A stretch of DNA of 64,000 nt from Polytrichum commune (Eukaryota; Streptophyta; Polytrichopsida; Polytrichales; Polytrichaceae). The stretch spans positions 248,001 to 312,000 of the forward strand of contig OX485809.1 in assembly GCA_950295325.1 (NCBI GenBank). Reading direction: 5' to 3'. The translations under genes were made by a program, and so were the position numbers. This document shows, one piece after another, positions 39,666 through 64,000 of the stretch. Under the pieces are notes generated by a model that saw nothing but the letters and a program-made list of their open reading frames with translations, did no database searches and was not told where the DNA came from. Every line of letters begins with the position of its first letter. The stretch's first letter is position 1.

Positions 39666-40205
39666 ATGCCGACTGTGAGCGTGAAATGGCAGAAGCAGGT
39701 GTTTCCTGCGGTGGAAATCGACTTCGAGCAATCGCCATACGTGTTTAAATGTCAGCTCTACGACCTGACGGGGGTGCACCCGGAGCGCCAAAAGATCATG
39801 GTGAAGGGGGGTTTGCTCAAGGACGATGGAGATTGGAAAGCTCTCGGGGTGAAGGATGGGCAGAGGCTCATGCTCATCGGCACGGCGGACGAGATTCCTA
39901 AGGCGCCGGAGGAGAGTCCTGTGTTTGTGGAGGATTTGCCGGAGGATGAGCAAGGGACGGCAGTGTTGGGCCACACGGCGGGCCTCGTCAATCTCGGCAA
40001 CACGTGCTACATGAACTCCACAGTCCAGTGTCTACATTCCGTGCCGGAGTTGCGATCCGCTTTGCAAAGTTATAATGCCGCGGGCGCAAGCGGGATCGAT
40101 CCCTTGTCTCACACCCTCACTGCCGCCACGCGGGAGCTATTCGACGAGCTCGACCGCAGCTCTCGCCCTGTTGCTCCTTATCGATTCCTCAAGCTGCTCC
40201 GAGAC

Positions 40206-40241
<36 letters not shown>

Positions 40242-42152
40242 ATCTTTCTTTCCGCTATACTGAACCCTAACGCTTTTGGTCAGTTTGTCAAGATATAATT
40301 GGTCAAACATGAATTGCTCAAGCCTGACTCTCTCTCTCTCTCTCTCTGGGATGAAAAATCTATGTTAGGGTTTGGGGTGTTTGTGATGATGTTTGCATTT
40401 AAGGCGGTCTCCAGTACGTTCACAATGTAATTTGTGGGAAAATGGAGGAAGCCTGAGCTTGATGGGAAGTTATTTCTGTGGTAGTGAAAGAGCAGCCACT
40501 CACGCACTGCCTCATCTTTCTCTTTAGGAGTTGAGGAGGCACATGACGAGGTGTCAGGATAGTCGTACGATCTAAGTTATGATAATGACATGCTCATCTT
40601 AGAATTCACAAGTCCCTTCATGTCTATAGCAACAATTTAGGCACAGTTGTAATGAATCAGGTTGCCCTTCGTTCATGTTTGATGTGCTTTGTTGTGTGTT
40701 GTATTGAGACCTGGGTTGGATAATATATCTGGAACTTCGTGAGTGGGATTGTGGTCATAACAAACACTTCCAGGATTTTAGGTCAGCAGTATCTAGTTGT
40801 TGTGGAGTTCAAAGTGACATAAGGATACATATGTCCTCATTTAGCACCTGTGACAATCGGCTATTATCTTCCTCCAACATTTATATTGTATGAATCATGT
40901 GCTCTGTAAATGTGATCATGTACTCATAGAAATGAGAGTTCTTTGTTGTGAGTAGCATAATTTGTAGTAGTGGACCTACTCGTTCTTTTATGCTTATAGA
41001 ACTATGTAGTGTGATGATATTACAAGTGGATTCTCACATTTCGCTAGGGTAAGATCTACAGGGTATTGTTTTGGCGCCTTCCTGTCAGTCATGACTGACG
41101 TCCTTCTGTCATTGGTTCTACACTCCAGCTTCTCTATCAAGGGTGGTAGTGTTTGCTTACATCCTGCACGTGTCTCACCTGCATACCAATGCTTATTTGG
41201 CAGGTACCCTCAATTTGGTCAACAATCAAATACTGGCATTTACATGCAGCAAGATGCAGAAGAATGTTGGACACAGCTGGTGTACGTGTTATCACAGGGG
41301 TTGAGAAGTCCTATGCTCAAGCAACCAAAGTCAACAACCTGGGTGAAGGAATTGTTTGGCATTGAATTAAAAAATACTGTGAAGTGTTTAGAAAGTGGTG
41401 AGGAAAGCTCAGAGCTAGAAACTGTTTTTACGCTGAAATGTCACATCTCACAAGAAGTCAATCACCTGCATGAGGGTTTGAAGCATGGATTGAAAGGTGA
41501 GCTTGAGAAGACATCACCTGTACTCGGACGAAGTGCTGTTTATATGAAAGAGTCCCATATTGAAAGTCTTCCCCTATACTTGACGGTTCAGTTCGTCCGT
41601 TTTTTCTGGAAGAGGGAATCGAACCAAAAAGCCAAAATCCTGCGGAAGGTAGACTATCCAATGGTCTTGGATGTTCTTGACTTCTGTACAGAAGAACTGA
41701 AGGAGAAATTAAAGGAACCTCGCCGGGCTCTTCGAGAAAGTGAAGATCTGAAGGCAGGTATAAAGAAAGATGAGAAAGGGAAAGGAGGAGCAGAAGGTGT
41801 GAAGGCACTTGAGACTCCACCATTAGCAGATCAAAGAGACACAGCTGTGAGTATGGATGTGGAAGGGATGGCAACCACATCATCTGTTGAGAAAGTTGAG
41901 GGTGAACCCTCTGCAGGACCAGAAGTCACTGGGTTGTATGACTTGGTAGCAGTCCTCACACACAAAGGACGCAGTGCTGATTCTGGTCATTATGTTTCTT
42001 GGGTTAAGCAGGAGAATGGGAAATGGGTAGAGTTTGATGATGACCAACCCACTTTGCGCAGAGAGGAGAATATCACCAGTTTATCAGGGGGTGGTGATTG
42101 GCATATGGCTTACATCTGTCTATACAAAGCACGGACAGCACCTTCTCTGTAG
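39666..42152 (+). CDS. UBP6: Ubiquitin-specific protease, UBP6/7 (USP14) family
   Basis: Exons 39666-40207 and 41204-42152 join inside a Lys codon (LLRDK|YPQF), giving 496 aa, close to Arabidopsis UBP6. Family knowledge: the enzyme docks on the proteasome through its ubiquitin-like domain and trims ubiquitin chains from substrates. Residues 3-75 form the ubiquitin-like domain. The Cys box GLVNLGNTCYMNS holds catalytic Cys114; QQDAEECW follows at 196-203; the His box ADSGHYVSWV holds His443; WVEFDDDQP follows. A Glu/Lys-rich insert (about residues 370-420) separates the last two blocks, as in plant relatives. The intron donor (GTCTCTCT) sits in a TC microsatellite. The gene is complete; UBP6 and UBP7 cannot be told apart here. 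Confidence 0.95.
40208..40237 (+). repeat. (TC)n microsatellite starting at the UBP6 splice donor
   Basis: About 14 TC units begin with the GT of the intron donor. A second TC run lies at about 40328-40348 in the same intron. Confidence 0.9.
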
Positions 42153-43247
42153 AAATATTGCATCCTCCCTCATACTTGCTGGGGATATTATGTGGTCTTT
42201 TATCCACCTCAGTGATTTGCAATTTTAGATTTTGTAGGAAGGCGATGTGCATATCTGAGACTTCCCATGAATAGAGGCGGATCCATCAAATGGAGTGTTG
42301 ATGGTTGAACGATTAAGTGCCTAAGAGGATTTCCAATCATGATCAAATTAATACTTGAGAGTGGTGAAGTGTACACACTACTGTTGCAAGTGACATTGTA
42401 TATTCTTGGAGGTTTTAAACTGAGTACATACCAGTTGTCAGTATGGGAATGAAAATCAGTTAGTAGACATTGTGGGTGAGTAAACCTCTTCCATTTCTGG
42501 GTATAGCATCATATTCTCAGAGAATTGCCATCAAGGCCCTCATATTCCATTACTCTCTTGATTGGGGTTTTTGTTTCAGTTTTTGGATCTTATCCAGATG
42601 GGATTAAATATGAGATGCATTAGTTCATACACAGTCCCAGGCTAAGGCACAAGATGGCATCCTTTTTGGAATGAAAAGAAATCATCTATAATGGTGTCCC
42701 AGTTTGTGAAATCAAGGACGTCTGTGCCATAGTGCTTGGAAATGTGTTGTTAGGTGTGTTAAGTGAACATAAGAACATCTGCATATCTTATGTGCTAAAT
42801 AGGCCGATGAACCTAAATGGTTTGTATGAGTCACTTGGTGCACTCTCCTCTCCTCTGATAGTTTATACCCAAGAGTCATAATACTTTGCCACATCATTAT
42901 GAAGATTTCTGGTTGTGTTAAATGCGATGTAGTTAACTTCACTCTGTTTGTCTACACTCAGTCCAATGCACTTGAACTTCACAAGTATCCTATTTTTCTC
43001 CACTCTATGCTACTTCATATGCTGATATCTCGGATTTACACAACGACTCTTAGCGAGGGATCACTTGAACTCATTTGAATGTGACTGCAAGAACCGCAGA
43101 TCGCATTGAAATACATATTTATGTAAATTTCACGATCAAATAAATTAACAAAACTTACAGTTGTGAGATCTAAAGCTTCATGGTCCTTATTAGGCCCGAG
43201 GTAGACATGCCTTAGATGGGCACTCTCCTCTCTGCACCCACTTCTTG
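42153..43247. other. UBP6-like 3' UTR and intergenic sequence
   Basis: No gene or repeat recognised. The first several hundred bases are probably the 3' UTR. Confidence 0.5.
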
Positions 43248-44338
43248 TAGGACTTTAAGTCCCCCCCCCAACTTTTTGGGGGAGGAATATTCGGGCAGGG
43301 GCAGCCCCCGTCGGATTTTCTGGACCCGACCAAAAACTGCTACCCGTCCACCCGACTTTGAAAAAACCATTGTCCTTGCATTCTTGAAGGTCACTTGTAC
43401 ACAAATCCCATATTGAGTGCACTTCATTTTTAAGGTCCCAAATCCAATATATATGTTCATTTTCATTGAGTAAGAAAGCAATTAACTTGGATTTCATTTT
43501 CAAAGTGAAACTGCCAATAAAGCATGTAATTAACTTGGAAGTCAAAAAATTTACAAAATCCTCATTAGCATTGAGGTTATAATTTGTGTGACTTACAATT
43601 GAAAGGGTATTTGTCATTCTAAAATGAAACTAAAATTAGTGATTTAATTTTTATATATTATATATTATATATTTCATAGTTAATACCTTCTACTAACACA
43701 AAGTTTTCATCCGCATTTAGACTAGTTAAGTGTGATTGAATGCAACTAAGTCTAATAAATTCATATTAATCCTAATTAATTCTGTTGACTTTGAAATATT
43801 TATGCCATGGTTTCAAGGATACTTCCAATCAAATGATGACATGTGTTGTTTATCACAGTACCTTTACCACATCGGCACTAATTAAACTATTTGAAAGATA
43901 ACTTCATTTTGAGAATTATATTTTTAAAATCTCATAAATAAAAAAGGGTAATTTTGATTTAACATATTAAAAATAAATCATTAATTTTAGTTTCATTTTA
44001 GAATGACAAAGACCCTTTCAATTGTAAGTCACACAAATTATAACCTCGGTGCTAATGAGGATTTTGTAAAAAATTTGACTTCCAAGTTAATTACATGCTT
44101 TATTGGCGGTTTCACTTTGAAAGTGAAATCCAAGTCAATTGCTTACTTACTCAATGGAAGTGCACTGGATATGGGGTTTGTGTATAAGTGGCCTTCAAGA
44201 ATCCAAGGACAATGGTTTTTTCGAAGTCGGGCGGGCGGGTAGTAGTTTTTGGTCAGGTCCAGAAAATCCGAACGAGCGACTGCCCTTGCCTGAATATTCT
44301 TCCCTGGAAAAGTTTGTGGGGGGGGGGGAGGACTTAAC
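43248..44338. repeat. Large imperfect inverted repeat (hairpin or fold-back element)
   Basis: The left arm (about 43248-43652) and right arm (about 43972-44338) are reverse complements over nearly their full length, at what looks like 85-90 percent identity. Shared blocks include CTTGGATTTCA, AAAGCATGTAATTAACTTGGA, CAAAATCCTCATTAGCA, TTATAATTTGTGTGACTTAC and AATGAAACTAAAATTA. Both tips carry a C/G homopolymer next to GGACTT. The left arm has an extra segment of about 40 bases. The loop of about 320 bases contains a separate repeat found at 46.1 kb. No protein is encoded. It fits a fold-back element or large MITE. Confidence 0.85.
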
Positions 44339-45801
44339 GCCCTCCCTTCTTGTATGATATGAATCACACAATTCATGCAAGACAGTTAGCAACTCCAAAT
44401 CAAGCATGTACCCATTTTCTTCATTGTTTTTGGAGCTCATATGAATATCTTATAATTATCAAAATGAAGATTCTTGTGCTCGTTAGCTGGTTAGATAGGT
44501 CCCCCCCCCCTCCCCTTGATCATGTTGACTATTGAGGTTGGAATGGATAGCATATTTTGAGCATGTAGTCCTTCTCTTCTAAACACATGTCATTTTGGTG
44601 CCAAGTCTTTGATCCACACTTAACCACACACCACTAAATTATAAGTGTCCAAATCATTGTTGTATTTGATTTAGGCATGTCTATCGTAGGTAATATAATT
44701 TTCAACATGTGTCTCGTAATCTGAAAGATACTATGTGCAATTATCATACCACTCAACAAAACAAAGTCAATATTAATTAATTTCAAGTCACAAGGTAGAG
44801 GTCAACAAAACTTTGTTCAATGCTTATCTATTTCATGATACATCCTCGTTCTCGTATTTCCTTTCCAATAAATAATGCCATCTATAAACTAGATTCAAAA
44901 CTCTTGAACTACAACTTCCTCAAGATGAAAATTGCCTCAAGACTAAAAAATCTTGAATCCTTTCATGGAGCGAGCAATCCAAGTAACAAGTGACAAAGTA
45001 CAAGTAATACGAAACCCTTAATGTTTAACCATCATTGCAACCCGTACACACAAAAATTGTACATGTTTAATGATTTTTTGGGACGATGACATGAAATTGT
45101 GATGTATTGGCAACATGTTGAATTGCATTGGAACCACCACCATCATTAAAAAAACAAAAATAAAAAACACACAAAGTAGAAGTATCGTACTTGAATTGTT
45201 ATTGTGAAATATATTGAGGTTCCAGAATAAAGCTAGGCTCATGAATTAAAACCTCAACTATCATAAGGAGATAATACGTTCATTTCACTATTTGTTCAAA
45301 CAAAAAAATGAGCCAACACCATAATTAATGTCAGTGGCAACATTGTTGTTGTCTTTCTGTCTTTCTTTCGACATTATGTGTTAAAAGTATGGAGTTTTAA
45401 ATTATGTTATCTTATGAACAAAAGGTCAACCATCATGTCATTCGCTGTATGAAATGCTTACATATTACGTTTAGAGTTTATGAACCTTCTCCGTGTCATA
45501 ATTATCAACTCATGGGCAAGGTAATCATAACATCGCCTCTACCATCGATATCATAACAAATTACTAGTAGTTTGCTACATGGCTCAATATGAGCACAGCA
45601 AATTACTTTGTTTTGACATAATTTAACATTGATGACGCACATTTTTTGGTCATTGTATATTTTCCATTAAATGACAAGCCGGATGACAACAATGTGAGAT
45701 ACCCATATCCAATCATTAATTCCAAAAACAAATGAATTTTGATATGATTGTATTCGTTGGTATAAATATCATGTTTCAAGTTTGTTTCAAGAAAATGAAA
45801 G
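44339..45801. other. AT-rich intergenic region
   Basis: No gene recognised. A run of ten C lies at 44501-44510, and copy 3 of the dispersed repeat tail lies at 45300-45372. Confidence 0.5.
45300..45372 (+). repeat. Dispersed repeat tail, copy 3
   Basis: Shares AAAAAATGAGCCAACACCATAATT, GTGGCAACATTG and GTCTTTCTGTCTTTCTTTC with the copy after the 5S-like element, in the same orientation. No 5S-like head precedes it. Confidence 0.65.
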
Positions 45802-48389
45802 TCAAATGTAGTGCCGGCGATTCCAAGAACAAGGAGTCTTAGCACGGATATGATCGGCTTCGATTTCAACTTCCTTCTCCTTGCGTTGGTTTTCTTTCTT
45901 CAAGCACTCGCTCTGCAAGATGAGAAATAAGTGTCATTTTGATGGTGATGTGCTATGACACTTGGAAGCATGCTGAATTTTGACAATGCTAGATGGCAAT
46001 CAAGTCCATTTTCTCTATTTAAAGGCCACAATGTTTAATTTTATTATTAGATTTGGCAATCCGGTTGGAAGGAAAAATCAAAATTTTACATTTTTTATTT
46101 TATGATATTCTTAAAATATAATCCTCAAAAAATGAAGTTATCCTTCAAATAGTTTAATCAGTGCCGATGTGGTAAAGGTACTGCAATATTCTAAAACAAT
46201 GTGTAAACAACACATGTCATCATTTGATTGGAAGTATCTTTGAAACCATGGCATAAATATTTCAAAGTCAACAAATTAAAAATATATATATAGTTACTTG
46301 TTTATTTTCTTCCATTAAGCTCTTGAGATATTCTCGTTTCTCCTTTATTTGTATTGTGGTTGCGTCCAAAGAATGTGGTCCAGAATACCTGTCCACATTT
46401 CAAGTATGTAAATGAGGATATTTTACTTATGTTGGGTGTAAGAACTTATGTGTTTTCAATTCCAAATATTGTTTTATAAGTATTTTGACGAATCTAAAAA
46501 AATTAAACAATTTTCTTGTAAATCAGTTACTAAGTTTATTATTATGTCTTAGTTATTGAATTAATAACAAATGGTTGTGACAAACTTGTTGCAATATTCT
46601 TGATAATAAAATTGGTTCAGCTCGTCTTTCTTAGCGAGTGCATTGTTCTTGTTCTTCAAATTCAATTGGTCTTCCATCGCTTTTCTTGTTTCGACCCTGC
46701 ACGAAACATATCGCCGATGTTTTCATACTTGAATTGTTTGTAGGTTTTTGTATCAAATCTCTAGAGTCGCAGTTGATGCAAGTAGTTCATATGACCTATA
46801 CAACATTTTATATCTCTTCAATTTGGTCTATTTTATTGCATTTCGATTACCATATAAGAATTATGAACGTTTGACTTGGATCCAATATTGACATAGTACA
46901 TCTTACAAAACTTTGACATTATGATGCCTTTGAGGATCGGTGACCAACTAAAAGAGTCTCATTGCATCAAGTTGACATGCTCATTTCAATTCACGTGAAG
47001 TGATTTGGGTGATATGATTATTATTATTAAGAAGCCATGTGATATTCACATTATTGAGTTTAAAAAGTACGGGGTAGCGAATGTGACAATCACATGCGCG
47101 TGAAATAATTGATTTTAATCTATATATGTGTGCTGAAAAAAAAGATTGTTCAACTTGATGCATTGAATGTGATAATGGTTCTTGGTTGTTTTGTAATGAT
47201 GGCAACACAACATAAAGAAATGTGACTTCCAAACACAAGAATGTTATTTATATATATATATAGTTTAGAATGCAACAACTATCTATTAGATTGACACACA
47301 TGTTATTATAAGTTATAACAAAGGCTCACATCATGGTGGATGTTTATGTTGCTCACCTTTATAAAAAGCCATGACACTTTGAGAGTTCTTTAATGTACCA
47401 TCACCATTGTTTATTTTTAGAATGCGATGTAGACATTGATGAAGCAAAGTGGAGGCAACATCATATTACGACACCAATCGCAACATTCATTTTTCACTTA
47501 ATAATTTTCTTCCCTTCATACATTTCCATGCAAAGTTGTGATGAGGATGATTAATGGACCATCATCAAATTCATCAATTTCTTTTTTTCTTTGTTCTTTT
47601 CTTGTGTCATACGATATATCTTTAAAATACCCATAAAAATCAATCAAATCCATTGATGTGTGTGTATGTGTTGCAAATTTATGCACAATGATTCAACATT
47701 ACTCACTGTATTCGAAGAATATCATCGCGTTTTGGAGACACGGTCACACGAATATGCTCCACTTTTTGCTCATGCAATTCTTGTTTCTTGTAAAAATCTT
47801 TTAATTGGTCTTTAAATTCCTTGTCAATGTTCTGTTCCCACTTCAATTATGTTGATACTCTCTTCATATATACAAAAGTTTATGTTAGTCAATTACATTG
47901 ATGGACATTATTAGGTATTAAAAAAAGTATGTACATGAGTCAAAATCATAAACTCAAGGTATTTGATATATATAAGGAATCATGTTTTTTGGTAGTTGAT
48001 TTTCAGTTGTTAGGCGCAAACTACATTTTGCTATGGCCAGACTTCATAGGTTCATATGTTTTGTATATGTAAAATTGGTTGATATTATTTATGTTAATTT
48101 CATAGTTGAAACACGTTAATAAGGTATGCGGATTAAAGTCATGTCCTTACATACTAGTGAGCATAGCCAACAAACAAATCCCACTAGTACGGGGCACTAT
48201 TATGTCGATTTTAGCCAATTTTAGACACAAGTCAATAATAACATAATTAGTTGTGTTAGTAAAGGTGACACTTAAAGACAACAATTCTTTACTTTTATTC
48301 ATCAAAAAACAGTCAATTTGTACCTCTTCATTTTTAATGGAAGGCAATTTCATCCGCCGATTCATAATGCTTGCTCTTATTGGCATCAT
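45802..48389 (-). CDS. Cryptic five-exon gene for a small charged, probably coiled-coil protein
   Basis: Exons 48324-48389, 47707-47840, 46586-46696, 46298-46388 and 45802-45912 have GT-AG borders and join without a phase break into a 170-aa frame ending at a stop. The protein is rich in Lys, Glu, Gln and Asn, with helix-forming stretches such as EEWEQNIDKEFKDQLKDFYK, TRKAMEDQLNLKNKNNALAK and IKEKREYLKSLMEENKQ, and few Pro or Gly until a short tail (TPCSWNRRHYI). I do not recognise the family. Size and composition recall small axonemal or ciliary coiled-coil proteins, which would suit a plant with motile sperm, but this is a guess. The start (ATGATG in exon 1) is the first Met after an acceptor, so an upstream exon is possible. 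The exons stand out against very AT-rich introns, one holding a repeat (46093-46272). It could be a decaying gene. Confidence 0.5.
46093..46272 (-). repeat. Inverted copy of the hairpin-loop repeat
   Basis: Reverse complement of about 43784-43945 with high identity; shared blocks include GTGCCGATGTGGTAAAGGTACTG, ACACATGTCATCATTTGATTGG and AAACCATGGCATAAATATTTC. It lies inside the last intron of the cryptic coiled-coil gene. Confidence 0.85.
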
Positions 48390-51300
48390 CGTGGAGAATC
48401 CTAAAATTTACACGTACCACATGTTAGGCTCTATGGACGGATGGTTATTTCTTTATCACCCATGATTGTATTGATGAGATTGGTGACAACAATATCAAAT
48501 ATGAAGTAAAACAATCCAATTTTTCTTATTTTGATTGACATTATTATCGACATTATGAAATGTTAATATTTGTTTCAGTATATAAAATAGTTTAGTTGTC
48601 CAAAGTTTTAGAGGCCGGCCTCCAACCCAAAAGGGGCGGAAATTTCATGTATTAATTGGCCTTAAGAAGTTTCAAATTCAAATGCTATCATCATAAGGCC
48701 TTCGCCAATTTCAAATCATTCTATTTTGCTATTCTCTTCATATAGAAGGACTCTAATACTTGGTATGTCAACCTTGACATAGAAAACGAGTGTCAAAACC
48801 ACAAGTATATATATTTTTAATGGTAATTTCATATATATATAAAATCAAAAAATAAGAGGATTGATTGGCTTGCAAATTGCAACCACTTGTTTGAATTGCA
48901 TTTTCAAGTAGTGGCTACCAAGTGAACACGTTTTTAATCCAAGATATAAAACAAAATTTGCTTATGTACAAGTCTAGTGAAATATGATTTAGGGTTACGA
49001 TATCCTTGCAATTATTTTGAAGAATTTGTACACCTTGAATTGTGTTGCGCTGAACCTATTTACCATTCTATGGATATGATATGCATGAAAATGGTGAAAG
49101 TTGTATTCTAAATACCCAAGAAATAGAACATCATGAATAGGACTTATAAAGCGTTATCGATATGATACAACTCTCATGTCTAGTGCCTTGAAATAATATT
49201 TGTATATCATCAATGGTTGTTGCAATTGTGTTTAAACTTAAGCGTAAGCAATTGACACGTACCAATGATCTTAGATGAAAAAACATTTTCTTTTCATGCT
49301 TTGGGCGGTTTGGTATTACGGTAAGATTTTTTTTGAATCAATGTTTATGAACAATAAATCTCTGTTGTATTGCATTCAAAAAGGGGAGATTGGTTGGACT
49401 TTGAATATTTACCTCTTTGGGTTGATGCTACTCGAGCTCGAGGAAGTGAAATTTCGGTTTTAAAACACCAAATGTTTGGATAATGTCATTGTCCGGATCG
49501 ACTACCTAAAAGTAATGTGATGTTGTTGTCGTTGCACGATCTACCGAAGATTTTCAGGCTTATACAACACACTTCATTATTTTCCGGTTACTTGATATTC
49601 AAATGTAACATGTTGTCTTGAAGCATGAGGACATTCAGGTGGTAGACTTTTTGTGTGGAAATAAAAAAACCAATGAGTTAAACTGGTCACAAATGTGGCT
49701 TCATGCTAAAATTTCACAAAATTTCACATATTCATCACATGTTTGATAGAGTTCTTTTTTTTAATCCTTGATGTTGAACTAACAAGCTTGACATAAACTA
49801 CACAAATATTATGAAAGGTCTTGTTGAAACCTATTAGTGCATTTAGGTATACTTGCAATTGAACAAAAAAAAATACCAAACTTCAAAACTATGACATTAA
49901 GGATGCCTCCAATTACAAAGAAGACAAATCACACTTGCTGGTAAGATGTCAATTGATCATGTTCATAAACATAAAGCCAAAAACCTATACCACATATTTG
50001 CGAGTACGGTGCAACCAAGATTTTTTTCCCCCTCAACTAAATCAGCAAAGAATGTGTTGTGGTGCATCAACTCACACCACAATGCTAGAAACATACGAGT
50101 CTGACAAAAAACGCACAACAATCGTCACTCGAAGACACTGCAACCATAAAACCAGTCTCCCAAAAACCTATATGTTATATCTCGTGTTCAAAGCATAGTT
50201 TAGGTTTTCGCCAATATTTGGATGCTTAGGGTTAGACTACCTTCTTTTTTTTTGCAAGAAAAACAACTTCTTGGTAACCTCCATCATCGAGTAATGTACA
50301 AATACTAACAAATTTGGAGATATAATATCAAAGTCTCGAAATCCGTACTTCCACTTCACACCGTTGGAATCTAATACCGTACATTTTATATGATTATGTC
50401 AACGAGATTTTATGTATGTTTCCTTGGAAAAACAAGAAGGGTGTGTTTGCACACGAGGTATAGGAGGATCGAAGTCTGAGGTTTAGGGCAATTTTATTTA
50501 TTTATAATGAAGTGTGAAATGTAGCATATGACTTTAGATTTCACTTAAGATTTAAATTCATCTAAGCAAGTTCCACCTCATAGAGAAAGACATGCATGCA
50601 CATGGGAATAATTAATGTAATACCCAATTTAGTAATTATATGATACCCATTTCAATAATTATATAATACCCATTTTAGTAATTGTATAATACTCAATCCA
50701 ATAATTATACAATACATGATATATCAATGTATGCATACTCTATATATAAATTGCTCCGAGTTTAGACCATATCATTATCTTTGAAATGAGTTGAGAGCTT
50801 CAAAATCTTCAAGATATGAATAAACTTGGGTTGCAACAAATCATCTAGAATTCCTCTCATTGTTCACACCTATATCAAGTTTATATATATATACATATGT
50901 TTTGTTTTTTTTTTTACTTTTAAAGATGTTGAAATGAGTGTAACTTTATGTTTATTGTTGCATTGGTTGTATTAACAAATGATAAGTGGTGTGAATATAA
51001 GATCAAACACACTGTTACTATTATATTATATTATATTATATTATGTTTATGGCACTATGGGAGGCTCCATATTGATACGAGTAAAAGTTGTGCATTGTAA
51101 TTTCTCCCAAATGTGATAATTTACTTTATAGATGTTGATTTTGTCAAGTTGGTAAGAGTGTGATCACGGGGACCAAAGGATCAGTCTTAGAGGATCAAAA
51201 CCCACCTCATACTAAATATCTAGAGGTTTTGAGCCCGGATATTTGGGGTTACGAAGTGATGTGTTCTCGACTTCGCAAAATGAGCAAAGTCCGCAAGACC

Positions 51301-52990
51301 AATTCGATTTTCATTGACTTTATATGTATAAGTGATTAACTAACTTAGTATGTGTCGAAGGTTGATGAACTATGTTGAAATATTTTGTTAATTTCTTGTA
51401 ATATGGCACTTGATGACCTGGCTAGTTTTCCGTCAAGTAGAGAGACGATCTCATGGCTGGGAATCGAACCGCCAACCACTCCGTTCGGTTTGGGTACCTT
51501 TCCAACATCGTCTGACGGTTTAGGGTCATCTCAGACCAAAAAACAAATGCTTTTTGAAGACACGCATCTAACATTTCTATCACATAATAGTCACAACAAC
51601 CTTGAGGTAAGTATGCAAATGAGGGGGGGGGGGAGGGGGGAAACAATTCTTGGAGCATTGACTCCCGTATTATAGCATGCATCTTTGGCACTAGAACAAA
51701 TTTTAGGGCTAGTCTTTTTATAGCTAAGAATATTGGAATATGAAGAGTTAGAGTTTGTCTTTACTTGAAATTAAGAATGACGAACATTCAAAAATGCCAA
51801 ATAAAAAGGCCACACAAGTGATAAGGCATGTGTGGTATCTCTTCCTAACTAGACACCTGTATTTGAGTGGGATATGATATTGATGGACCTTACAATTTGA
51901 TGTTCTCTTAAAAAGATTGAAAATTAAAACATTCTGAATAATTTTGATAAATAATAACTTTTGGTGAAGTTTGCCCTGTGATACTTGTAATTTTAAGAAT
52001 CAAAATTGGGAAGCATATGATTGTATTGTAGCATGCTTAAAAGCAATATACAACTTGTGCTTTAGGAATCCACTATCTAAGGCCTACAAAAAAATGCCAA
52101 ATTAAAACAACTTGCATAAATAACTATCTATACTAAATGTTTGTAACAAAATATATACATATTTATAACAAGGGAGTTGCCACCCCATGTAACCATTGTC
52201 CATGTAGCAATTCACTCACTCGAGGATGAAGGTGTGGGTGCCCATTGTGGGCATTCTCAACTTGCGTATCTGTATGGTTGTGGGCTGAATGTGCTAAAGT
52301 GGTATTGTGAAAAATACAAATCGAGGTGAAGCTCTATTGTAAAGACACCAACTTGAGGTTAGAGTGTGCTTGGAATGCCATTTATATGTCCCTTCTAAAG
52401 TGTTACATGCAATGTTTAAGAAGAGAATTGTGCCTCATCGAAACAAACATGTGTCGTATGTGCAACTTTGCCTATGAAGCACTTGCAATATACATGGAAC
52501 TGGTTCCAACCTAATTACAACATACGTGCAACATGTAGTGTGTCTTCAACCGTGTTGACAAACAAGGGCCCACATTTCTTCAGTTGCCTAAACTAAACTT
52601 CACAATTGTAAGTGATTGTTTGTGATTGGGTTCTGGTTGTATGCTCCAAATGATATGTTCGCATAATCAAAGCATGGACAAATTAATGGTGTTTAATATC
52701 GAATCAACGACCCGAGCCAGCTAGCCACTTAAGACAAGTGACCATGTAAGGCACACACACACGCACACACACATGCACACACTATTCAACTCCAATGTGT
52801 GTTATTTGTTTCCATATGAAGCCTTACATGCTTGCAACATACTATCGGTAACGCTAAGTGGCCTGCCATGAGAACGATTACACCACACACAACAAATTCA
52901 TCATTAAACATAGTGGAAGGCTATAACAATGACATGCATATTTATGGGTTGATACTCAATCAACAGTTCAAGATGTGAGGATCAACAATT
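48390..52990. other. AT-rich intergenic region
   Basis: No gene recognised. Contents: TA-rich microsatellites, a TTATA run at about 51018-51043, a SINE-like copy at 51407-51537, a run of 11 G at 51623-51633, and a CA run near 52755-52780. Confidence 0.55.
51407..51537 (-). mobile_element. tRNA-derived SINE-like element, copy 2
   Basis: The minus strand begins GGTCTGAGATGACCC and contains GGTTCGATTCCC (complement of 51459-51470), a full match to a Pol III B box, then ATCGTCTCTCTACTTGACGG. It matches the copy at 29505-29617 over its whole length. Confidence 0.65.
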
Positions 52991-55222
52991 CAAACCATGA
53001 AGCTAGGCAATCCAAAGTCAAGTAAAACGAGTGAAAGCGATACGAAGTTAGGGAGGGAGAGCATCGATGGCCTCCTCGAAACAACTACACCTAACACAGA
53101 TCCAACACCACTAAATCTAGTGATCGAAAGCCAACACACTAACAAACAAAGAGAGACGACGCTAACCGTTAAGGCTGCCGTGAACGAGGGACGCTTCACC
53201 TTGATCAGAGCCGTGGACGGGTTTAATGGACGTGACTAAGGAACAAGTGCCGCCCGCTAACGTACATAGATACGTGGTTTGATACTCGAGACCACATAAC
53301 GTCGTAGCTTAATACCAAGACCTCAAGATGGAAGGAAAGGAGGGAGCTAAGGAGGAAGCGATCCAAAGGCAAGTGAGAGCAAGCGGCGAAGCGGCATGAA
53401 GTTAAGAGAGAGGCAGACAAAAGCGGCGTGGGTATAGGGGCCTCTTCGCACCGCAGAGGAGAGGAGAGAGGGAAGGGAAGGGAAGAGAGGGGGAAGGTTC
53501 GAGAAGGAGCTTAACTGGAGAGCGAGCAGGGCAGAGGAGAGAGAGAGAAGAGTCGGAACCTGAACAAGGGAAGGGAAGGAGAATGGGAGAGAAGGGCGGG
53601 GTTGGGGTTGGACGGAGGGGATCTATGACCGCGGGCCATTAAGGAAGGAAGGGCCGCAGCATTAGGGTTTGACGCTCCAGGGGGGGAGCGAGCGTGAGCG
53701 AGGAGCTAGGTAACATAGAGGAAGCACTGTGGTCTGAGGAGGACACGCTTGCGCGGGTGACATACTTCACGTACTTGGCGGATGCTGCAGTATGCGAGCG
53801 AGGATGCACAGGGGGTGAGCTTAGGCCACGAGTGACGCTGGGTAGTTCGGTGGGGGGAGGAGGAGGAGGATGAGGATGCGGTGAGAAGGAAGAGGAGGGA
53901 GGTTGCGAGCGAGGGAGGGAGCGAAGGAAGGAAGGAAGGAACGAGTGGCTCGGCTGCATGCGTGCATGGTGATGGCATCAGCTCGTCGTAGGGTTTGTGG
54001 CGGTTTGAAGGTCGCCCTGGCTCGTGTGCCGTTGCTGCTCTCGTTCGGTGGCTCGGGTCGTCGCCGGATATTTGGAGCGATTGATTGTACGTGATAGGGA
54101 GTGGACCTAGGTCGCATTTCCATCGAGTGAGTGTGCGTGCAGGTGCTGTTTCCCGCCCTCCCTGGAGGTGGCCGGGCATCGCAGATGGTGTGGTGTGGCT
54201 GCTGTTGCTGCCGGTTGTGTTATCATGTTTGTGTTGTTGACGCGAGATTGAGTGTATTTTCATGAAGCTGAAGGACGGCGAATCACCATATCGTGGATGT
54301 GAAACTTCAGGGCTGCTGGTTGAATCTGGACCTCTGGCTTACCGGAGTGTATGGAGGCAGGGGTTACCTTGGGCCGCTTGTTTTTTTAAGTGCTGGGGGA
54401 GTCGGATTTCCTGTCATGCATGAAGGTAATTTGAAGAGTTTCTATCGACATTTTTATTAGCATAAAAAACCTTAATCAATGGAGAGCACATAACTCGGAC
54501 TACGGGGATGGAAGAATTCTCAGAATAGGATAATTGGTTGAGATCATCAAGTGTGGAGGTCTTCCGTAGTATCCTCATGTGCCTGTGAGGTTCTTTTGTA
54601 AGCATATCAATTTTGCAGTGGGTTTTCATTCTGCATAGCTGAGTTCTCTCTGTACATTGCCCGAGCGTCGATGGATCGCCCAACCCCATTTCTTGGTATG
54701 GGAAGATTGTGCTAGTCCTGGAGCCTTTATTGATGTAGTAGCAATGGCTGAGTGCAGAGGATTATTATACAGAGGGTCGATTTTTGTGCAAATGCATCGC
54801 AGGGGTGTAGAGAAGCGAGAGTTCATGCGGACTTGCCAATCTATGCATCTAATTCTCCCGTAACTTTGAACAGTCATGATACTCTCCAACAAAGTTAGCG
54901 AATCAGCTGGTGACCGATGATGAGATGGAAGACAGAAATGTGACCTAATTGAGCACTTCGTCAGTCCTCTATTTTATCTGTAGGTTTCATACTTTGTTTT
55001 GGCATGTGAACGCATGACCTAATATTCTAAGCAACCATTATTACAGAGATTTAGTGCCTAGCTTGTGTTTTTAGGCACGGTCTATCACATGTGTCATCTC
55101 CCTCTCTCCCTTTCTCCCTCTCTCTCGATGTCTGTGCCTCATGGGACTGCTGTGCTGCTGACAATTAATTCTCTATTTTGTGGCAAGCAGGAGCTCGAGA
55201 CTTGTGGAATGTTAGTTAATTG
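52991..55222 (+). promoter_or_regulatory. Promoter and 5' leader region of the ATXR3-like gene
   Basis: Sequence turns GC- and purine-rich from about 53.3 kb. A telo-box-like TTAGGGTTT lies at 53662-53670. Non-coding leader exons probably occur here: a splice acceptor (AAGCAG ending at 55190) precedes the coding exon, and an in-frame TAA at 55217-55219 shows the coding frame does not extend upstream. Low-complexity ORFs on both strands are not considered genes. Confidence 0.55.
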
Positions 55223-58200
55223 ATGTTGGACTGCACTGCGGCAGCAGCAGCAGATCAACTGAACTGTATGGATAGAAGCCGAGGTTTTAGTGGGCACCAG
55301 TTTGAAGAACAGCCTCATCTTGTTCCGCGGCCAATTGAGTGGACTCGTAATTGCTTCAGTTGTGGGCAGCCAGGACATGTGGCCAGGGAATGCACTCGGG
55401 GCCATTTTGCCAGGAATCTGGGCATACAGGTTGGGTTTTTTGGAAGGGCTTATCCCCAGGGCTGGCTAAATCCTGCTCTTCGCCCCCTGCCTCTGCATAG
55501 CAGGGAACCTGAGTTCCTAATTAATAGAGAAGATGGCCCACAAGCATGGCAGCAACAGGTTTCACGGGACTTTCAAGAGTCTCGTGGTTTGGCCGCTAGG
55601 AATCTCTCTTTCATGCAGAATAGGGTGGTTGATAGGGCCAGAGATAGGCGGTCAGGGTGGGCGGATTCTGGAACCCAGTCACATCTTTCGGGATGCCCTC
55701 GTCCTTCTGAAGAAACCTTCGCCAGCGCATTGAAAAAGAATAATATTAATAAACAGCCACCACCTGTGAGGCGCCCTATCGCCTCGAAAAGGAGCTGTGG
55801 GCATAGGAAGGAACTAGAGGGTAGTGACACATTGTTGAGGGCGTTCACCAATTGCAGCACCAGTGCCTGTGATGACAGAAGGGGTCCTAATTCAGAGGCC
55901 GCTAGTGGTTCTTTATCGGAGTATTCTCATGGAAAATCAGGTAACCGAGGGCAGAGGGATTGGGGAGGTGACCTGGAAAGAAGGAATTCCGAACCCGGGA
56001 CATGCTCTCCTGATTTACGTGGTGGTGATTTCAGAGATGGTCAATCTGGGAATACTAGTGCTGTACACAGTGAGAGGGCAGGAACCAGATACCAAGAAGT
56101 ACTCCCGGAGAGTTACGGGCCATGTGGAATTCCAGCGCAAGTGGTGATGGTGGACAGGTTGGATTCAGCAGATGATTTAGAAAATGGGGAAATTTCTAGG
56201 GAGGATAATGTTGATCATGACTTATCGGCTCCTTCAAGGGGTTTACAGTTGGACATGGACAAAGGTGACACATTATCCTCTGCGCATGCTCTGGATCATG
56301 GAAAGAATCAACCTCCTCATCAAGAATCGCCTACCGAGAAAGTTTTCTACAATAATAAGGAATTGGACGAGGAAAAATCTGCAAGTCTGCCTGCAGACGT
56401 GCATGTTGTACGGCCAAAGTTGGAGATAAAAGATAAACATGAAACGAGGCTTAGGCCTGGCAATAATTCAAGTGTCCGGCCCTCTTCAAACGACAATGGG
56501 GTGAACATGCGTGTAGAGAGAAAAGTGGACGGAGAGGATAGAGAAGGATCTGAGTGGTTTTCATCCAAAAGAGACCTGGATCAAGTTGGAAATGCAGGTG
56601 TCTGCAGGTGTGTTTCACACAGCAACAGCGGCTGTGCAGGTTTTCCTTATTGTATTGAGGCTAGTAACCGAGGAGGTGAAGTGAATTCTTGGCAGGATGT
56701 AGACCGGGGTCAACCCACTTCTAGCGAAATGGTAAACCGATTACATCATTACCAAGTTTTGGAGGGAGATATGCAGACCTGTAACTCAAAACTTGAAAGG
56801 GAAAACCCCCAATGCCATACTTCCGACAATAGGGAAACAGTGTCTGTTGCAACAAACCCACAACCTACTGGAGGTTCTCAGCCTCTGTTTGGCAGAGGTT
56901 TTACTTCCGGACCTGTTTCTCACCACAACTCAAGCATGGTGTGGAGAGGGCAAAACTCAAGAGGCTGGGGTAGCGGCCATGTTTCAATTGAAGAACCGGT
57001 GATTTTAAGGTCAGGCATTGGTGGATGTGCTGGGAACAGTAGTACCAGAGGTGCATTATCAAGGTCGTCAGGTTTTTCAGATCCTAAAGAATGGCAAGTG
57101 GAGTCAGAAGACATGGAGAGGACCCTTGGAAATAAGGGGCGATTGATGTCAGAACATGTATCCTGTCTGCACATAAATGGCATGCAAGAGAGTGGGCTGC
57201 AACGCAACCGAGACATTCCAATGTTTCAACCAGATGTGGGTGCACATGTGCTGAATGGAAGTGGTGGTTTTTCAACCAGTGGTTCTCAAAAAATGGATCC
57301 ATCTCTTCGCAAGAATATAGATCATATTGAGAGAAATTGTCTGCAGTCTGATGGAGTCCAAACAGAAGTTTTCGAGAAACATTACAACATTGATGCACGT
57401 GTGGAGAAGTTAATGTCCAAATTTCCACTGGTTCAGGGAAGAGAACAAGACAGTGTTGCAGGTATGTCGACTGGAGAATTCAGAAATAGATACATTGCTA
57501 GTCGGAGTTTGAATGTGTTGCTGGCATTTACTTCTTTACTTTCTGAAGAGCTGGGATTTCTAGCTTAGTGTTCTGAGTTTTATCAATTTACGGAAGATTA
57601 TGTGGATGTGGTATTTAGTTGTTATTGGAGCAAATCTCAGCTGGGTCCATACGAGATGTTTGCCATTGAGGGTTCTCATTTTTTTGATGTGTTGAGAAGT
57701 AGATCATCCTTCAAAAAATGACTCATTCTTATTGCTGACTGGATGCACTTTCTACTGTGAGGGAGATTATCCTGTCGTGCTGCCTGTTGCTTTCAAGTCC
57801 TTGGAGGGCATTTTGCAACTATCCAAATGTCTATTCTTCTCCCCTAATGGTGTTAGAGGCTTAGGTCAGCAGGATTGACGAGGTGATTTCATGAGTTTCT
57901 CATGGATCACGTTTTTTTATTTTATTGTTGCAGATGCTTTAATGGCTGCATCGCAGCAAGTTAGTGAGGATGAGTTCGAGGGCGAGAGTGAAGGTGGGTA
58001 GAGTATCAATCCACCACTTAAATGCACTTTCATTTTACTGGGTTGGGAAGTTGTGAAATTTGTCTTCTTTCTAGTTTCTCATATAGGTCCGAGCATGTTC
58101 ATGACCTTGATTCGCACATGCGAAACTATCATGGTAGCAAGGATGTGGTTATATCCTTTCTGTGAACAGCTTGAGGGCCTGCAACACTGTCCATATGCAT

Positions 58201-61200
58201 TTTGGTTCAACTTGGGCTTGAAATAACTTACGCAATCTGTTCTGCCTTCAGCATGTTGCATGAGATACAGATCAGGATACAAATTTATACCTACCAATGT
58301 ATGAACAATATTTTATCGAGCTTTATAATCCTTACAAATCCACAGAATCCATAGATGACAGTTGTTGCATGACAGGTTGGCTCTACTACTTTTAAAGGTC
58401 CTTAGTGTAAGCTTGTTAGCTATCTCATGGGCTTGGTTGGGTAGATGCAAAGTTTCTTCATAATATCGGATAGATGTCTCAAATGAAAGATTCGCCCAAC
58501 AGTCCTGAGGGTTTCTTGGGTTATGATTGCAAATATGCTATATATATATATATATATGAGGACTTGTGATATGCATCAAAATTGTCTACATATGTTGTGT
58601 CCTTCGTTCATGTGGTTTGCAAGACTCTAAGGTTGTTGAGTAGATAAATCTATAATTATTTGTAGGATAAGGCACTGCATGAGTGAAGGATTTCTGGAGA
58701 CATGAACTCTCTCTGACTGGTTCTATGTGTGAGAGAATCATTCACAAAGATTTTGCAGTAATAGTACATCGTTCGTGTTTGATGCTATTACTTGTAAAAC
58801 CTTGTTGGAATCTAACCATTGACAATTCTTATTGTTTACGGTCTGCAAGTGTGGTTGAGATTATTTGCGTCAGTAAGTAAATTAATCTGCTCAGGAATTT
58901 GGCATTCCGTGACCCTCAGTTGCTAGCTGGTGATGTCTTGTTGAAGCAATTTCAAGGGCTTGATATAAATGATGAAAGGGTAGCTGAGGGAGTTTCATCC
59001 ACAGTTAGTTGGGCATTGACCAGACTGTCCTGTAGCGGTGTAGTTCTATTAAGAGGTTTATCCAATTACTGTGAGGACTTTACAATTGAATAAGCATTGA
59101 TAATGTATTTGAATTGATGGATTTGCAGGTTTTGAATCCATTTCTAAGATCTCTATTGAGGTCCAACATGTGGAGAGCAAATCTGAGGCACCTGCAGAGC
59201 TCCAGGTTCCTGATGTATCTACAGATGTCCCTTCAACATCTCCTGTTGGAGTGAAATTGAGCTCTCAAATAAGCAACCCACATTGTTGGAAGTTTCCTAC
59301 AGCAGGAGGAGATTGGAGACTCACCCAAACAGAGAGGGCTGACTCAACAGGGGTTGTGGTAGGACGACTTCCAAGCTGGAGAAAGGAAGTAATGAATAGA
59401 GGAGTTAGCCTTTGTGAGATCGAAAACCGGGGGCTGACTGATCCTCGAAAACAGCCTCATGGGGCTGTGTTGCAGCAGCTGCCAAAATTGGACATACCAG
59501 GCTGGGCAATGGGATGTGTTGACAAGATTGACAATGCACTGGATGAAAAACCTGCTCACTATCCGCAATTAAGTGGAACATTACCTGGAAGATCTGGGCC
59601 CCTTCTAAACTCTCAGCTATCCATACCTGACTCCTCAACAACCACAGGGCTTGTAATTACTCCCAGATCCTCTAGAGCATTAGCTAGTGGGGCCAATGTT
59701 ACAAGTGGAGCCGTTGGAAATCAAGTGAAAGAGGCAGGCAAACCTATGAAAGTGCGGAAGCCAGGGCAATCGAGAAGCTCAGGACACAAGCCTGAAAGCT
59801 CAATTATCAGCAGGAAAACTATCCCGGCTGCTGAGCAGACTGTGGGCACTATCACAAGCAAGACCTTGTTGCCAGGTGCTACTGGTAGCAATCATGTATT
59901 GGATAACCAGAACAACAGAGCTGTGAGCCAAAAGCCTGGAGAGCAGTTGACTAGTCTCCCTCCTCTTGCCAGCCAAAATAATGCAGGTGATCAGCAGAAT
60001 ATTGCCTCATTCAGATCAAGGGCTACCGCTCACACTTCTAAATGGAGCCGCAATTCTTCCTCTGTTGTCTTACGAAGGCATGAGTTGCAGCTAGACACTG
60101 GATTTTGGCACTATGTGGATGCAGCAGGTCATGAGAGGGGGCCGTTCCTCATGTCTGCCTTGCAGGCACTTGTAGCAGAAGGAAGGCTTCCTGATGGAGC
60201 CAGCGTTTTTAGGAAGACTGACAACATCTGGGTACCTGTCTCACACCTAATGTCGTGTTTTCAGGCATCTGCTCTGCCTCCTGCATCAAGTGGGATGCCA
60301 GGGTCTTGCTCTAGCCACTTCAGTGAGGAAACTGACTGCAGCCCATCAGAACCTCTGCCACCATCTGTCCTCTCCAGACTTTCTGAGGCTTTTGCTTCCA
60401 AGGAGTTGTACACAGCCACTTCTATGTTGGGTGGTAATTCACCATTATTTCATGAGGAACACCCACAGTTTCTTGGGTACACTAATGGGAAATTACATGA
60501 ACTTGTGATGAGATCGTTCAGGGGAACTTTTCCAGGTTTCTTGAATGATGCTTTGACAATGTGGTTGCTTACAAGGAAGTCAGTCACAGAGTCAACAGGA
60601 ATGGCCCTTGTCTCAACTCCAGACGACACAGCTATAGCAGCGAGTCCAGTTGCAAATGTTGTGGTGAGTGGGTCAACCTTCATGGAGCCATCTGCTGGTT
60701 CAAGGAAAGTTGCTGTGAAGATGTGCAATGAGGGTAAGCAGGCCCGTGTATCTGCAAAGTATCAGGAGACCATCATAGAGGCACAAGTAAAGGATGACAA
60801 CTGCGACTTGGATGGGATTGGGAAGAGGAATCTACGAACGACTGGGCTTATTAAGCCTTCAGGGAATAGCTTATTGGGAATACGAGATGTGTCCAGCCCA
60901 ATTGACCATTCACTTAGTTTTGTGACTGATGCTGACCAGGTCTTGTCACAGCAGTTCCCAGGCCAGAGTCCTGTTTCAAGTCAGGCTTTTGATACCGAAT
61001 CTCCGTGCAATCTGAAATCAAGCAAATCTAGAAATGAGATTGCAGCTGATAGTGCTCCCTTGGGTTCAGGTGTGTACATACTACATGAACCATATTCATT
61101 TCATTCTCTATGTGAGTTACTGGTATTAATTGAGCAGTAATGAGTCTTACTTGGTGCATCTTAGTTATTGATGGCTTGAAAGGAGTAGTTTTGTCCTGTT

Positions 61201-64000
61201 GTTTACATGCTATGTGAAGTGTCTAACGTTTTACAATTTAGTTACAGAGACAGTTTCATCAAATGTGGACGGAAGCCCATCCATTGCTGAACATGATTCT
61301 TGGGGTGGAAGTGGACGTCATGCGGAAGATGTCCAGCTTTGTAAGCGGAGACTACTGCAGCTCAGTACTGTTGAACTGGACGGAAGTAATAGTAGCACAA
61401 CATCCCAAGTAGCAACCTATGCCACGATGACAGTGTCAACGGAAACCAAAGCCAGGGAAGGTTCATCAGATCAGGAGATTTCAAAAACAGCTGCAATGGA
61501 TTCAATGGAGTTAGACATGGATAGGCCAGGAATGTTGCGGGATGGTTTGATACAGGAAGGATGGGCAGGACTGTCATCTAGAGTGTTGAAGATGATTTTA
61601 CGGCTGCTATGTGGGGATCCCAAATCTTTGGCAGCAGCAATGGCAACTTGCCAGTCATGGAAGGAATGTGCTCAGGAGATCAAAGTCTCAATGAGACATG
61701 TTGATTTGTCTGGTTTAGGGTTGCATTGCACTGATGCAATCCTCAATTCTTTGTTGGTACGTCTCTCTTAATTATTATTCTTTAATATACTGTTTACCAA
61801 TATCTGTTAGTGCCGTCTGAAACATAATACTTGTAAGGACATTGTAGCAGATTCCAATGTGACTAATGATGACTGCTGTGACAGGGATATGGTAATGGAG
61901 ATCTGAAGCGTATCACGTTGGACTATTGTACAAATGTGAGCTCTGAAGGACTTGGGATTTTACTGAAATCTTACCCGGCAATTCTTGAGGTTCAGATTAA
62001 TGGTTGTACACAGCTGAGGGAATTGGTCAACCTCTATCCTAAGATTAGATGGCTTGGAAATCCCTGGGCAAGGAAGAGCTCTGGAGGTCCTCGAAAATCG
62101 GGTCATCACAAGGTGAAAAACCGGAAGCGCACTGGTGAGAGGCGAGAAGTTGAACAAGGTTTTGATGGTTACAGTGGGTGTTCATTAGATGAAAATGGTT
62201 ACCCAGATAAAAGTGCAGAGGAAAGGGAGAGTCCAGGAGCAGAGCGCACATTGGTTGATATTTTAGGCCCAGTGGTTGCAGAAATGCGGCAAGTGGGGCC
62301 AGGGCAGTCTAGGGAAGCTAAGCGTCTCAAGTTGAGCAGAGGGAAAGGATCACAGAGTGGATTTGGCTCTGGGATTAGCAAGTACCCTGAACAGCAGAAA
62401 ACTGGAATCAACTATGAGAAGGGAATTCAAACCAAAGTGAGTAGGGATGAATACAGCACAAAGCGAAAGGTGAAGTCTAGACTTGCCTACAAGAAACAAG
62501 CCAATTTGACCCGTCCTTCAAAAAAATCCACATCAATGAGTCGAAAGCCTGAGACTCCTGGAAAGGAAGTAACGCGGAGTCCAAAACATGCAGAGAAAGA
62601 TCTGGAGAAAGCATTGGCAGCTGCACTGAAAACTGTTATGGAGGCTGACTCTGATCAAGTGTTCTTTCGTCTGGTATTTGTACTAACTTATGTCATACAT
62701 TCTCTAGGGATCAGTTGCAATTAGGTTGCTGCAAGGCACTTTTTTTTAGGCTCCATATTTATGTTGCTAAACTGGTGATTCATGGTAGTTAATGTTCTTT
62801 TGGCTAATAACTGGCAGATTTTTCTCTTGGAAAACTGAATTGAATTAGAGTCCATTGCAATTCAAATCCAAAAGATTGGACATAAATAAATAATGATAAA
62901 TTGGTCCAATTGATTTCATGCGTTAGATACGAAGAAGACACAAAGTCACGTGCCCTACATCTATAGAATGAGAAATGGGAACAGGAATTATAGTGACTTT
63001 TCCTCTGTATCTTTGGTCCTTTCCACAACAAGATTCACAAGTAGTGATAAACTGCTTCCTTGGGGATGTACTTCTTATTAATTGCTCTTGCTCATCCACC
63101 CCTGCACTTTTTGTCCTGTATATTTATAGTGGTGTGAGTCTAGTGGGCAAGCCATTTCACCACTGAGATCATAATGGAATGCTTGCCTAATGGTAGGCAA
63201 ATGAGCAAGTGCCTGATGGCAGAGGAGCCTCTTCCAAGACAGCTCAAATGGATTTCAGCACTGTCCAGAAAAAACTTAAGATGGGCCTTTATGGAGGGAA
63301 AGACGGCACCAGAACTTTCAAGGAAGACCTTTTTCAACCTCTACGCAACGCTTTCAGGTGGTTTGGCAGACCTCATAGTGGGAAGTAGTTTCCTGCATTC
63401 CAATCCTGTGGCTTTCTTCATTCATTTCTGGGCAGGTTGTGAGGGGAGCTAGCCATGGAAGAACTAAATAATTGTCCTGTAATGTGAAGACTGTGCCCCT
63501 ATATAAGCAGTGCCATTTGCACATGATCTTATCCTGATGTAACCACTGCATCAATCATTGAAATGTGCAGGCTGGAGCATGATTCTCCAATGTACAAAGC
63601 AGCAGGAAGAATCTTCAAGGTGGCCCATCAAGTGGGAAGGCAGCTGGATGATAGTCTGGCGAGTCCCCAGTGGAGCATTCCTGCTCAAGGTCAGAACAGG
63701 GCCCTTGGAAGTTGCACAAAATCAAGAGGTGCTAAGTATTCTGTGGAAAGACAACAAGGTACTAAGAGAACTTGGGAGCAAACTGCTGGAAGTGGACGAG
63801 TTAGGGGAAAGGTCTTGAGCATCAATAACAACAGAGCTGATGGAGTTGTTGGGAGTGGAGACTTCGATATTGAAGGACCTTTTGAAAGAGACCGAGACCG
63901 GGAGTCTCGTCATGTTCGAATGAGGAGAAACCAGTGGTCAGAGTCAGAAGCTGAGAGTTCAGATGAGGAGGATGCAGATGAAGCACTCTCTGATGAACCA
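55223..64000 (+). CDS. ATXR3: Histone H3K4 methyltransferase, ATXR3/SDG2 type (N-terminal part, cut by window edge)
   Basis: Exons 55223-57461, 57934-57993, 59129-61069, 61242-61756, 61885-62673, 63197-63357 and 63571-beyond the edge join in phase for about 2045 codons. Family knowledge: ATXR3/SDG2 deposits H3K4me2/3 through a C-terminal SET domain, here off-window. Blocks shared with Arabidopsis ATXR3: a LENGEIS motif; IDARVEKL; GGDW; a GYF-like segment at residues 1088-1140 (GFWHYVDAAGHERGPF, SVFRKTDNIWVPV); HPQFLGYTNGKLHELVM; CGDPKSLAAAMATCQSW with VDLSGLG and CTDAIL; the CTNV repeat; and the MKNGYY-like segment as KKLKMGLYGGKDG. An N-terminal CCHC zinc knuckle (C44 to C57, CFSCGQPGHVAREC) and a long Ser/Gly/Asn-rich disordered region precede these. 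The first of two GYF-like segments in Arabidopsis is not visible. The start is ATG 55223, after an in-frame stop. Confidence 0.88.
58895..59037 (+). other. Possible optional exon of the ATXR3-like gene
   Basis: Within the 57994-59128 intron, an open stretch follows an acceptor (CTCAG ending 58894) and ends at a donor (GCG|GTGTAG). It encodes protein-like residues including FRDPQLLAGDVLLKQFQGLD. If the preceding exon uses a second donor at 57998 (GG|GTAGAG), the exon adds 49 codons without breaking the frame. No match to Arabidopsis ATXR3 was recognised. Confidence 0.4.

Follow-up and report, generated by a model that had tools for sequence, protein, structure and literature searches.

Gene content and exon structure of the locus

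The DNA analysed here, referred to below as the window, is a stretch of 64,000 nucleotides from Polytrichum commune (contig OX485809.1, positions 248,001 to 312,000 of the forward strand), and all coordinates are counted from its first nucleotide. Genes encoding an EF-Tu, which we take to be organellar, a bZIP factor, an Argonaute (AGO), a UBP6-type deubiquitinase, and an ATXR3-type methyltransferase were located in the window, the full names of these neighbouring genes being in part our own presumption (Table 1). Pfam domains were in accord with the control genes, with matches above the cut-off for UCH, ArgoL1, a zinc knuckle, and EF-Tu domains 2 and 3, and matches under the cut-off for the GYF domain of the ATXR3-type gene and for an F-box-like domain. 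Scans of the window for tRNAs and Rfam families found nothing. Between the gene for the UBP6-type deubiquitinase, to which it lies tail to tail, and the gene for the ATXR3-type methyltransferase, to which it lies head to head, a candidate gene composed of five short segments is present on the minus strand.

Table 1 Coordinates of the candidate gene and of the neighbouring genes in the window
Feature	Position	Strand	Remarks
Exon 1	48324..48389	-	66 nt; from start codon to donor GAG/GTACAA
Exon 2 (from 47831)	47707..47831	-	125 nt; acceptor GAACAG/AA (site score 3.0), donor ACA/GTGAGT (site score 3.3)
Exon 2, optional in-frame extension	47832..47840	-	9 nt; encodes Trp-Glu-Gln
Exon 3	46586..46696	-	111 nt; acceptor GTGCAG/GG, donor CAA/GTTTGT
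Exon 4	46298..46388	-	91 nt; acceptor GGACAG/GT, donor CAA/GTAACT
Intron 4	45913..46297	-	contains a 205-nt stretch (46075-46279) with an inverted copy at 43776-43960
Exon 5	45802..45912	-	111 nt; acceptor TTGCAG/AG, ends with stop codon TGA
EF-Tu gene	2928-4887		Pfam EF-Tu domains 2 and 3
bZIP factor gene	13823-14398
Argonaute (AGO) gene	about 16000-24352	-	Pfam ArgoL1
UBP6-type deubiquitinase gene	39666-42152		last exon ends at 42152; Pfam UCH
ATXR3-type methyltransferase gene	55220-64000	+	Pfam GYF match below cut-off

When the five segments were read and concatenated, they formed a single uninterrupted frame of 504 nt, encoding 167 amino acids and ending with TGA, in which the cumulative phases at the four junctions are 0, 2, 2, and 0 and all introns begin with GT and end with AG. 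These minus-strand segments, with their splice borders and phases, had been proposed in a first-pass annotation of the same DNA, and all of them were reproduced at the same ends. The annotation had also held that the gene would escape searches for long open reading frames, which is borne out by its exons, the largest of which spans about 41-44 codons. Inspection by eye suggested one more exon near 47620-47540, which was set aside because its length is incompatible with the frame. When five polyadenylation-like hexamers were tried, a single one, AATGAA at 45284, was found within 600 nt past the stop codon, and TATA-like strings are located at 48584, 48813, and 48841.

Scores and base composition of the exon chain

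A scorer for spliced genes was written for this study, combining codon log-odds and splice matrices with costs for start, stop, and intron. Its splice matrices and a helical, Lys/Glu-rich amino acid composition were set by hand, and the candidate was already known when that composition was chosen. Real sequences were compared with shuffled ones in which dinucleotides were preserved, either within 100-nt blocks (local shuffles) or over the whole region. In a blind version of the scorer, the composition begins as an average one and is re-estimated from the best path of each sequence, real and shuffled alike.

The blind version returned the five-exon chain with a score of 29.4, a value that none of 3000 local shuffles attained (maximum 25.2), and, because the composition was learned blind, the bias arising from a helical composition written with the candidate in view is removed. 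With the helical composition, the real sequence scored 25.8, with five exons that begin at 48365 and use the acceptor at 47840, and when 2000 shuffles were made for each of three block sizes, none attained this score (maximum 14.8); in a separate run, 0 of 4000 local shuffles reached the real score (maximum 20.5). Under this same composition, the opposite strand and the complement scored 0 and the reversed sequence 6.9. A composition set halfway to the average gave 18.7 for the real sequence against a shuffle maximum of 16.5, so that here, too, none of 4000 local shuffles came up to the real score.

Fixed average compositions gave different results. With neutral codon usage, the region 45500-48700 yielded a model containing exons 3-5 that was not significant, its score of 3.2 being equalled or exceeded by 14 of 200 local shuffles and reached by 1 of 200 whole-region shuffles, and over 44600-53000 the top model was another single exon, 51574-51422. 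Combining the average composition with the codon usage of the other genes of the window produced only a two-exon fragment in 45500-48700, consisting of exon 5 and part of exon 4 (score 1.2), and a top model at 43370-43212 when 43200-53000 was scored. A flat model, which contains no composition, found no gene with a score above zero in the region. Because the flat and the fixed average models fail, the case stands on the agreement of composition, frame, and splice sites, and not on frame and sites by themselves. The earlier statement that such agreement is unlikely by chance is upheld with the blind, helical, and half-average compositions, but not with the fixed average composition or the flat model.

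As a control on real DNA, 78 tiles of 3200 nt were scored on both strands with two models, using 200 shuffles wherever a model emerged. Tiles that exceeded all 200 shuffles by more than 1 unit were found only on the EF-Tu, AGO, UBP6, and ATXR3 genes or on the candidate. No tile contained the whole candidate, and the one that scored, with the helical model only (15.3 against a shuffle maximum of 9.9), spans exons 3-5 and has a spurious start; under the average model, the candidate was absent from the tile cases in which at most 2 of 200 shuffles equalled or exceeded the real score. Four further tile cases, one of which is the strand opposite UBP6, exceeded all shuffles by 0.4 or less. A ranking of real tiles by raw score without shuffles was abandoned, as GC-rich tiles outscore the candidate through an ill-fitting background.

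The blind test was also applied to 26 tile-and-strand controls in AT-rich DNA, of which two gave no model and none had a real score that all 100 shuffles failed to reach. The lowest values were obtained for the tile spanning exons 3-5 (1 of 100) and for two plus-strand tiles that overlap each other within 48500-52800 (1 of 100 and 2 of 100). These two plus-strand tiles contain no known genes and may represent a further small gene or a chance result.

The base composition of the exons was then set against that of their surroundings. The ratio of observed to expected CpG is 1.08 in the exons (exon 2 taken from 47840) and 0.56 in the remainder of 44500-52900. Random placement of segments of the same lengths in 20000 trials matched the CpG ratio in 1.07%, the CpG count in 0.19%, and the GC content in 3.7% of the trials, and GC content and CpG ratio jointly in 0.05%, and sliding the whole exon pattern along the region gave 0.8% for the ratio, 0.4% for the count, and 4.3% for GC. 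Neither CpG nor GC is a direct input to the scorer, the GC value being partly dependent on the picking of protein-like segments. Individually, exon 5 has a GC content of 0.46 and 7 CpG, and exon 1 shows no CpG excess over its flanks (2 CpG in 66 nt, as compared with 3 in 120 nt of flank). The GC contents at the three codon positions are 0.45, 0.26, and 0.43. The surrounding DNA had been described as too AT-rich to code, and it is indeed poorer in GC than the exons, but at 0.33 elsewhere in the region against 0.38 in the exons the wording is too strong.

A chain of open segments put together by chance in AT-rich, purine-patchy DNA would be in keeping with the shuffle counts of the fixed average model and the empty flat model, and with the 3 of 26 blind-test controls, the tile spanning exons 3-5 among them, whose score was equalled or exceeded by no more than 2 of 100 shuffles. 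The outcome of the blind test on the whole chain and the enrichment of CpG and GC in the exons, which lies outside the direct inputs of the scorer, argue against such an origin, and we judge it improbable. Our preferred reading, to which we give a probability of about three in four, is that the five-exon chain constitutes a genuine protein-coding gene of the plant nucleus, intact and spliced, that encodes a basic and probably mostly helical protein.

Exon boundaries and neighbouring repeats

The donors of the candidate score 3.3-4.7 and its acceptors 3.0-7.2, which is inside the range for the predicted AGO and UBP6 introns, a comparison set that consists of the scorer's own predictions, some of them doubtful. 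When all 376 AG sites in the AT-rich region are ranked, the acceptor of exon 3 belongs to the top 0.3% and that of exon 4 to the top 2.1%. Coding scores differ among the exons: exon 5 has the best score of the five under each of four models, exon 1 is weak, with log-odds of 0.8 to 2.6 over the four models, and exon 4 is also weak, ranging over the four models from -1.8, obtained when codon usage was taken from the other genes of the window, up to 4.5, and from 1.2 to 4.5 under those run with neutral codon usage.

A second possible acceptor for exon 2, at 47840, lies 9 nt upstream of the one at 47831 and in frame with it, and its use lengthens the exon to 134 nt and the product to 170 amino acids. 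These are the longest segment and the product length given in the first-pass annotation, which therefore match the version with acceptor 47840. With a score of 0.82, this site falls short of 47831, which scores 3.0, and ranks under every one of the 27 acceptors in the predicted AGO (24) and UBP6 (3) introns; nevertheless, it is preferred over 47831 by the whole-gene scorer, and either of the two may be the acceptor of exon 2. Exon 1 has in-frame ATG codons at 48389, 48386, 48365, and 48353, the third of which is chosen as start by the scorer. Across the possible starts and acceptors, the size of the product is roughly 158-170 residues.

The weakness of exon 1 and the shifts that the scorer makes in the start codon and in the exon 2 acceptor are what would be expected if the gene were real but began differently, with its actual first exon located at another place or with missing exons that leave out a recognisable domain. 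This is possible, though we think it distinctly less probable than not having mistaken the 5' end, as scoring of 44600-53000 with the helical composition gained no further exon, a result that a domain of another composition could escape.

Between the candidate and UBP6, positions 43261-44323 form a large inverted repeat, whose arms of about 400 nt are separated by a spacer of 293 nt and are 81% identical when gaps are counted, with 90% and 85% identity in the two best stretches. In appearance it is a mobile element bounded by long terminal inverted repeats. The copy of the intron 4 stretch listed in Table 1 is located in its spacer and is 84% identical, which would mean that intron DNA was taken up by the element or that a third repeat is present at both places. 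Elsewhere, positions 28276-28390 are 70% similar to 44353-44474, immediately outside the inverted repeat, and a 23-nt unit forms a tandem array at 50615-50729 in AT-rich DNA.

The recurrence of intron 4 DNA within this inverted repeat could be read as a sign that a transposable element has spread the candidate, which would then be a pseudogene or a fragment of a gene. The shared part is, however, confined to the intron, no exon is repeated within the window, and the frame and splice sites are intact, all of which makes such an origin very improbable. Nor did Pfam give any transposase family, as might be looked for in a transposon-derived coding sequence.

Protein product and possible role

The predicted product contains 14.4% Lys and 12.0% Glu, followed by Arg, Asn, Ile, and Leu at 7.2% each, in agreement with the Lys/Glu richness reported in the first-pass annotation, and with 36 Lys and Arg residues against 29 Asp and Glu residues it is a basic protein. 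The annotation had further called it helical and a coiled coil. Folding covered the peptides of exons 2 and 5, each folded alone, and predicted a helix at residues 7-33 of 44 for exon 2 with its extension (mean pLDDT 67) and helices at residues 2-25 and 28-35 of 36 for exon 5 (mean pLDDT 87); as charged peptides often come out helical, these predictions for two of the five exons lend slight support to the first term. The second was not sustained: for windows of 21, 28, and 35 residues, 509, 733, and 389 of 2000 permuted sequences reached the best heptad score of the candidate, which therefore does not stand out from permutations, whereas that of the window's bZIP factor, used as a positive control, was reached in only 86, 35, and 28 of 2000. 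A hydrophobic-moment test for amphipathic helices was dropped as insensitive: with the shorter windows, most permutations equalled or exceeded the candidate, and the bZIP control behaved likewise.

Searches for relatives were made at several levels. Pfam gave no relative for either form of the product, the weak matches to four families (E-values 0.067 to 6.7) being each under the respective cut-off and not accepted. Likewise, no credible relative was found among PDB sequences for the whole product, two overlapping parts of it, or the alternative form; a centrin chain (E-value 0.36) and a chain of 40S ribosomal protein S3 (E-value 0.046, in two weak stretches) were not accepted, and the few remaining matches had E-values above 0.4. 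In viral contigs, the 103-residue part encoded by exons 3-5 gave 7 pattern matches, and in prokaryote genomes the whole product gave 59, none of which was confirmed in either case. Judged by sequence, the product is without recognisable kin among solved or Pfam-modelled proteins, and the statement is limited to these.

In its short exons, canonical splice sites, and intact frame, the candidate resembles small multi-exon plant genes of unassigned family, and it is probably a real small gene whose function is unassigned and whose family is not placed. It shares high charge and, for two exons, predicted helix with short leucine-zipper-like coiled-coil proteins but differs from them in having no heptad signal above permutations. 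With the TPH and RIB43A kinds of filamentous microtubule inner proteins it has in common a charged, Lys/Glu/Gln-rich helical make-up; it differs in that no PDB chain of these kinds was listed among its matches. TPH/RIB43A-type proteins are several hundred residues long, unlike the candidate. Both families were unlisted in the Pfam search at E-values up to 10, a range in which HMMER filters discard most weak matches.

We propose that the protein would be mostly helical and rich in Lys, Glu, Asn, and Gln, without clear leucine-type heptads, with helix breaks likely at Ser-Pro and Ser-Gly-Pro stretches. It may act as a small structural part rather than as an enzyme, with charged helices that follow the surface of some bigger complex, such as the cytoskeleton or a nucleic acid. 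Its composition, its length, and the absence of a recognised domain make such a structural helical role the likeliest one.

A more specific proposal is that the gene belongs to the sperm flagellum and encodes a small helical protein that follows the microtubules of the axoneme, the basal body, or the multilayered structure. The short, basic, Lys/Glu/Gln-rich product and the predicted helices of the two folded exons are consistent with this, as is a Q-L/I-x-x-K pattern in exons 3 and 4-5, which may resemble filamentous microtubule inner proteins. PDB chains include axonemal structures, and no credible match was found among them or in any Pfam family. The first-pass annotation had guessed at a ciliary or axonemal role and pointed to the MIP/CFAP families; Pfam and the PDB sequences gave no axonemal match, at a sequence level that a distant member could escape. 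From composition, a ciliary role is possible, and we regard the placement in the sperm flagellum as tentative and on the unlikely side. The 1 kb upstream contains one match to the motif of the sperm regulator DUO1 (consensus RRCSGTT, PMC6290024), at 49304, where 0.34 would be expected, a count that speaks neither for nor against the proposal.

A narrower form of this proposal, which we consider doubtful, is that the product represents a new family of short, helical, microtubule-associated proteins, specific to plants and to the flagellum or multilayered structure of swimming sperm, that has no solved axonemal counterpart and that was overlooked because its five exons are all tiny. Searches of open-licence papers listed no plant inventory of sperm-flagellum parts.

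The locus provides a worked case in which five exons too short for long-ORF searches, with a composition hidden in AT-rich DNA, were recovered by a self-trained scorer. If the product is indeed a protein of the sperm flagellum, it would add a plant-specific part to that structure.
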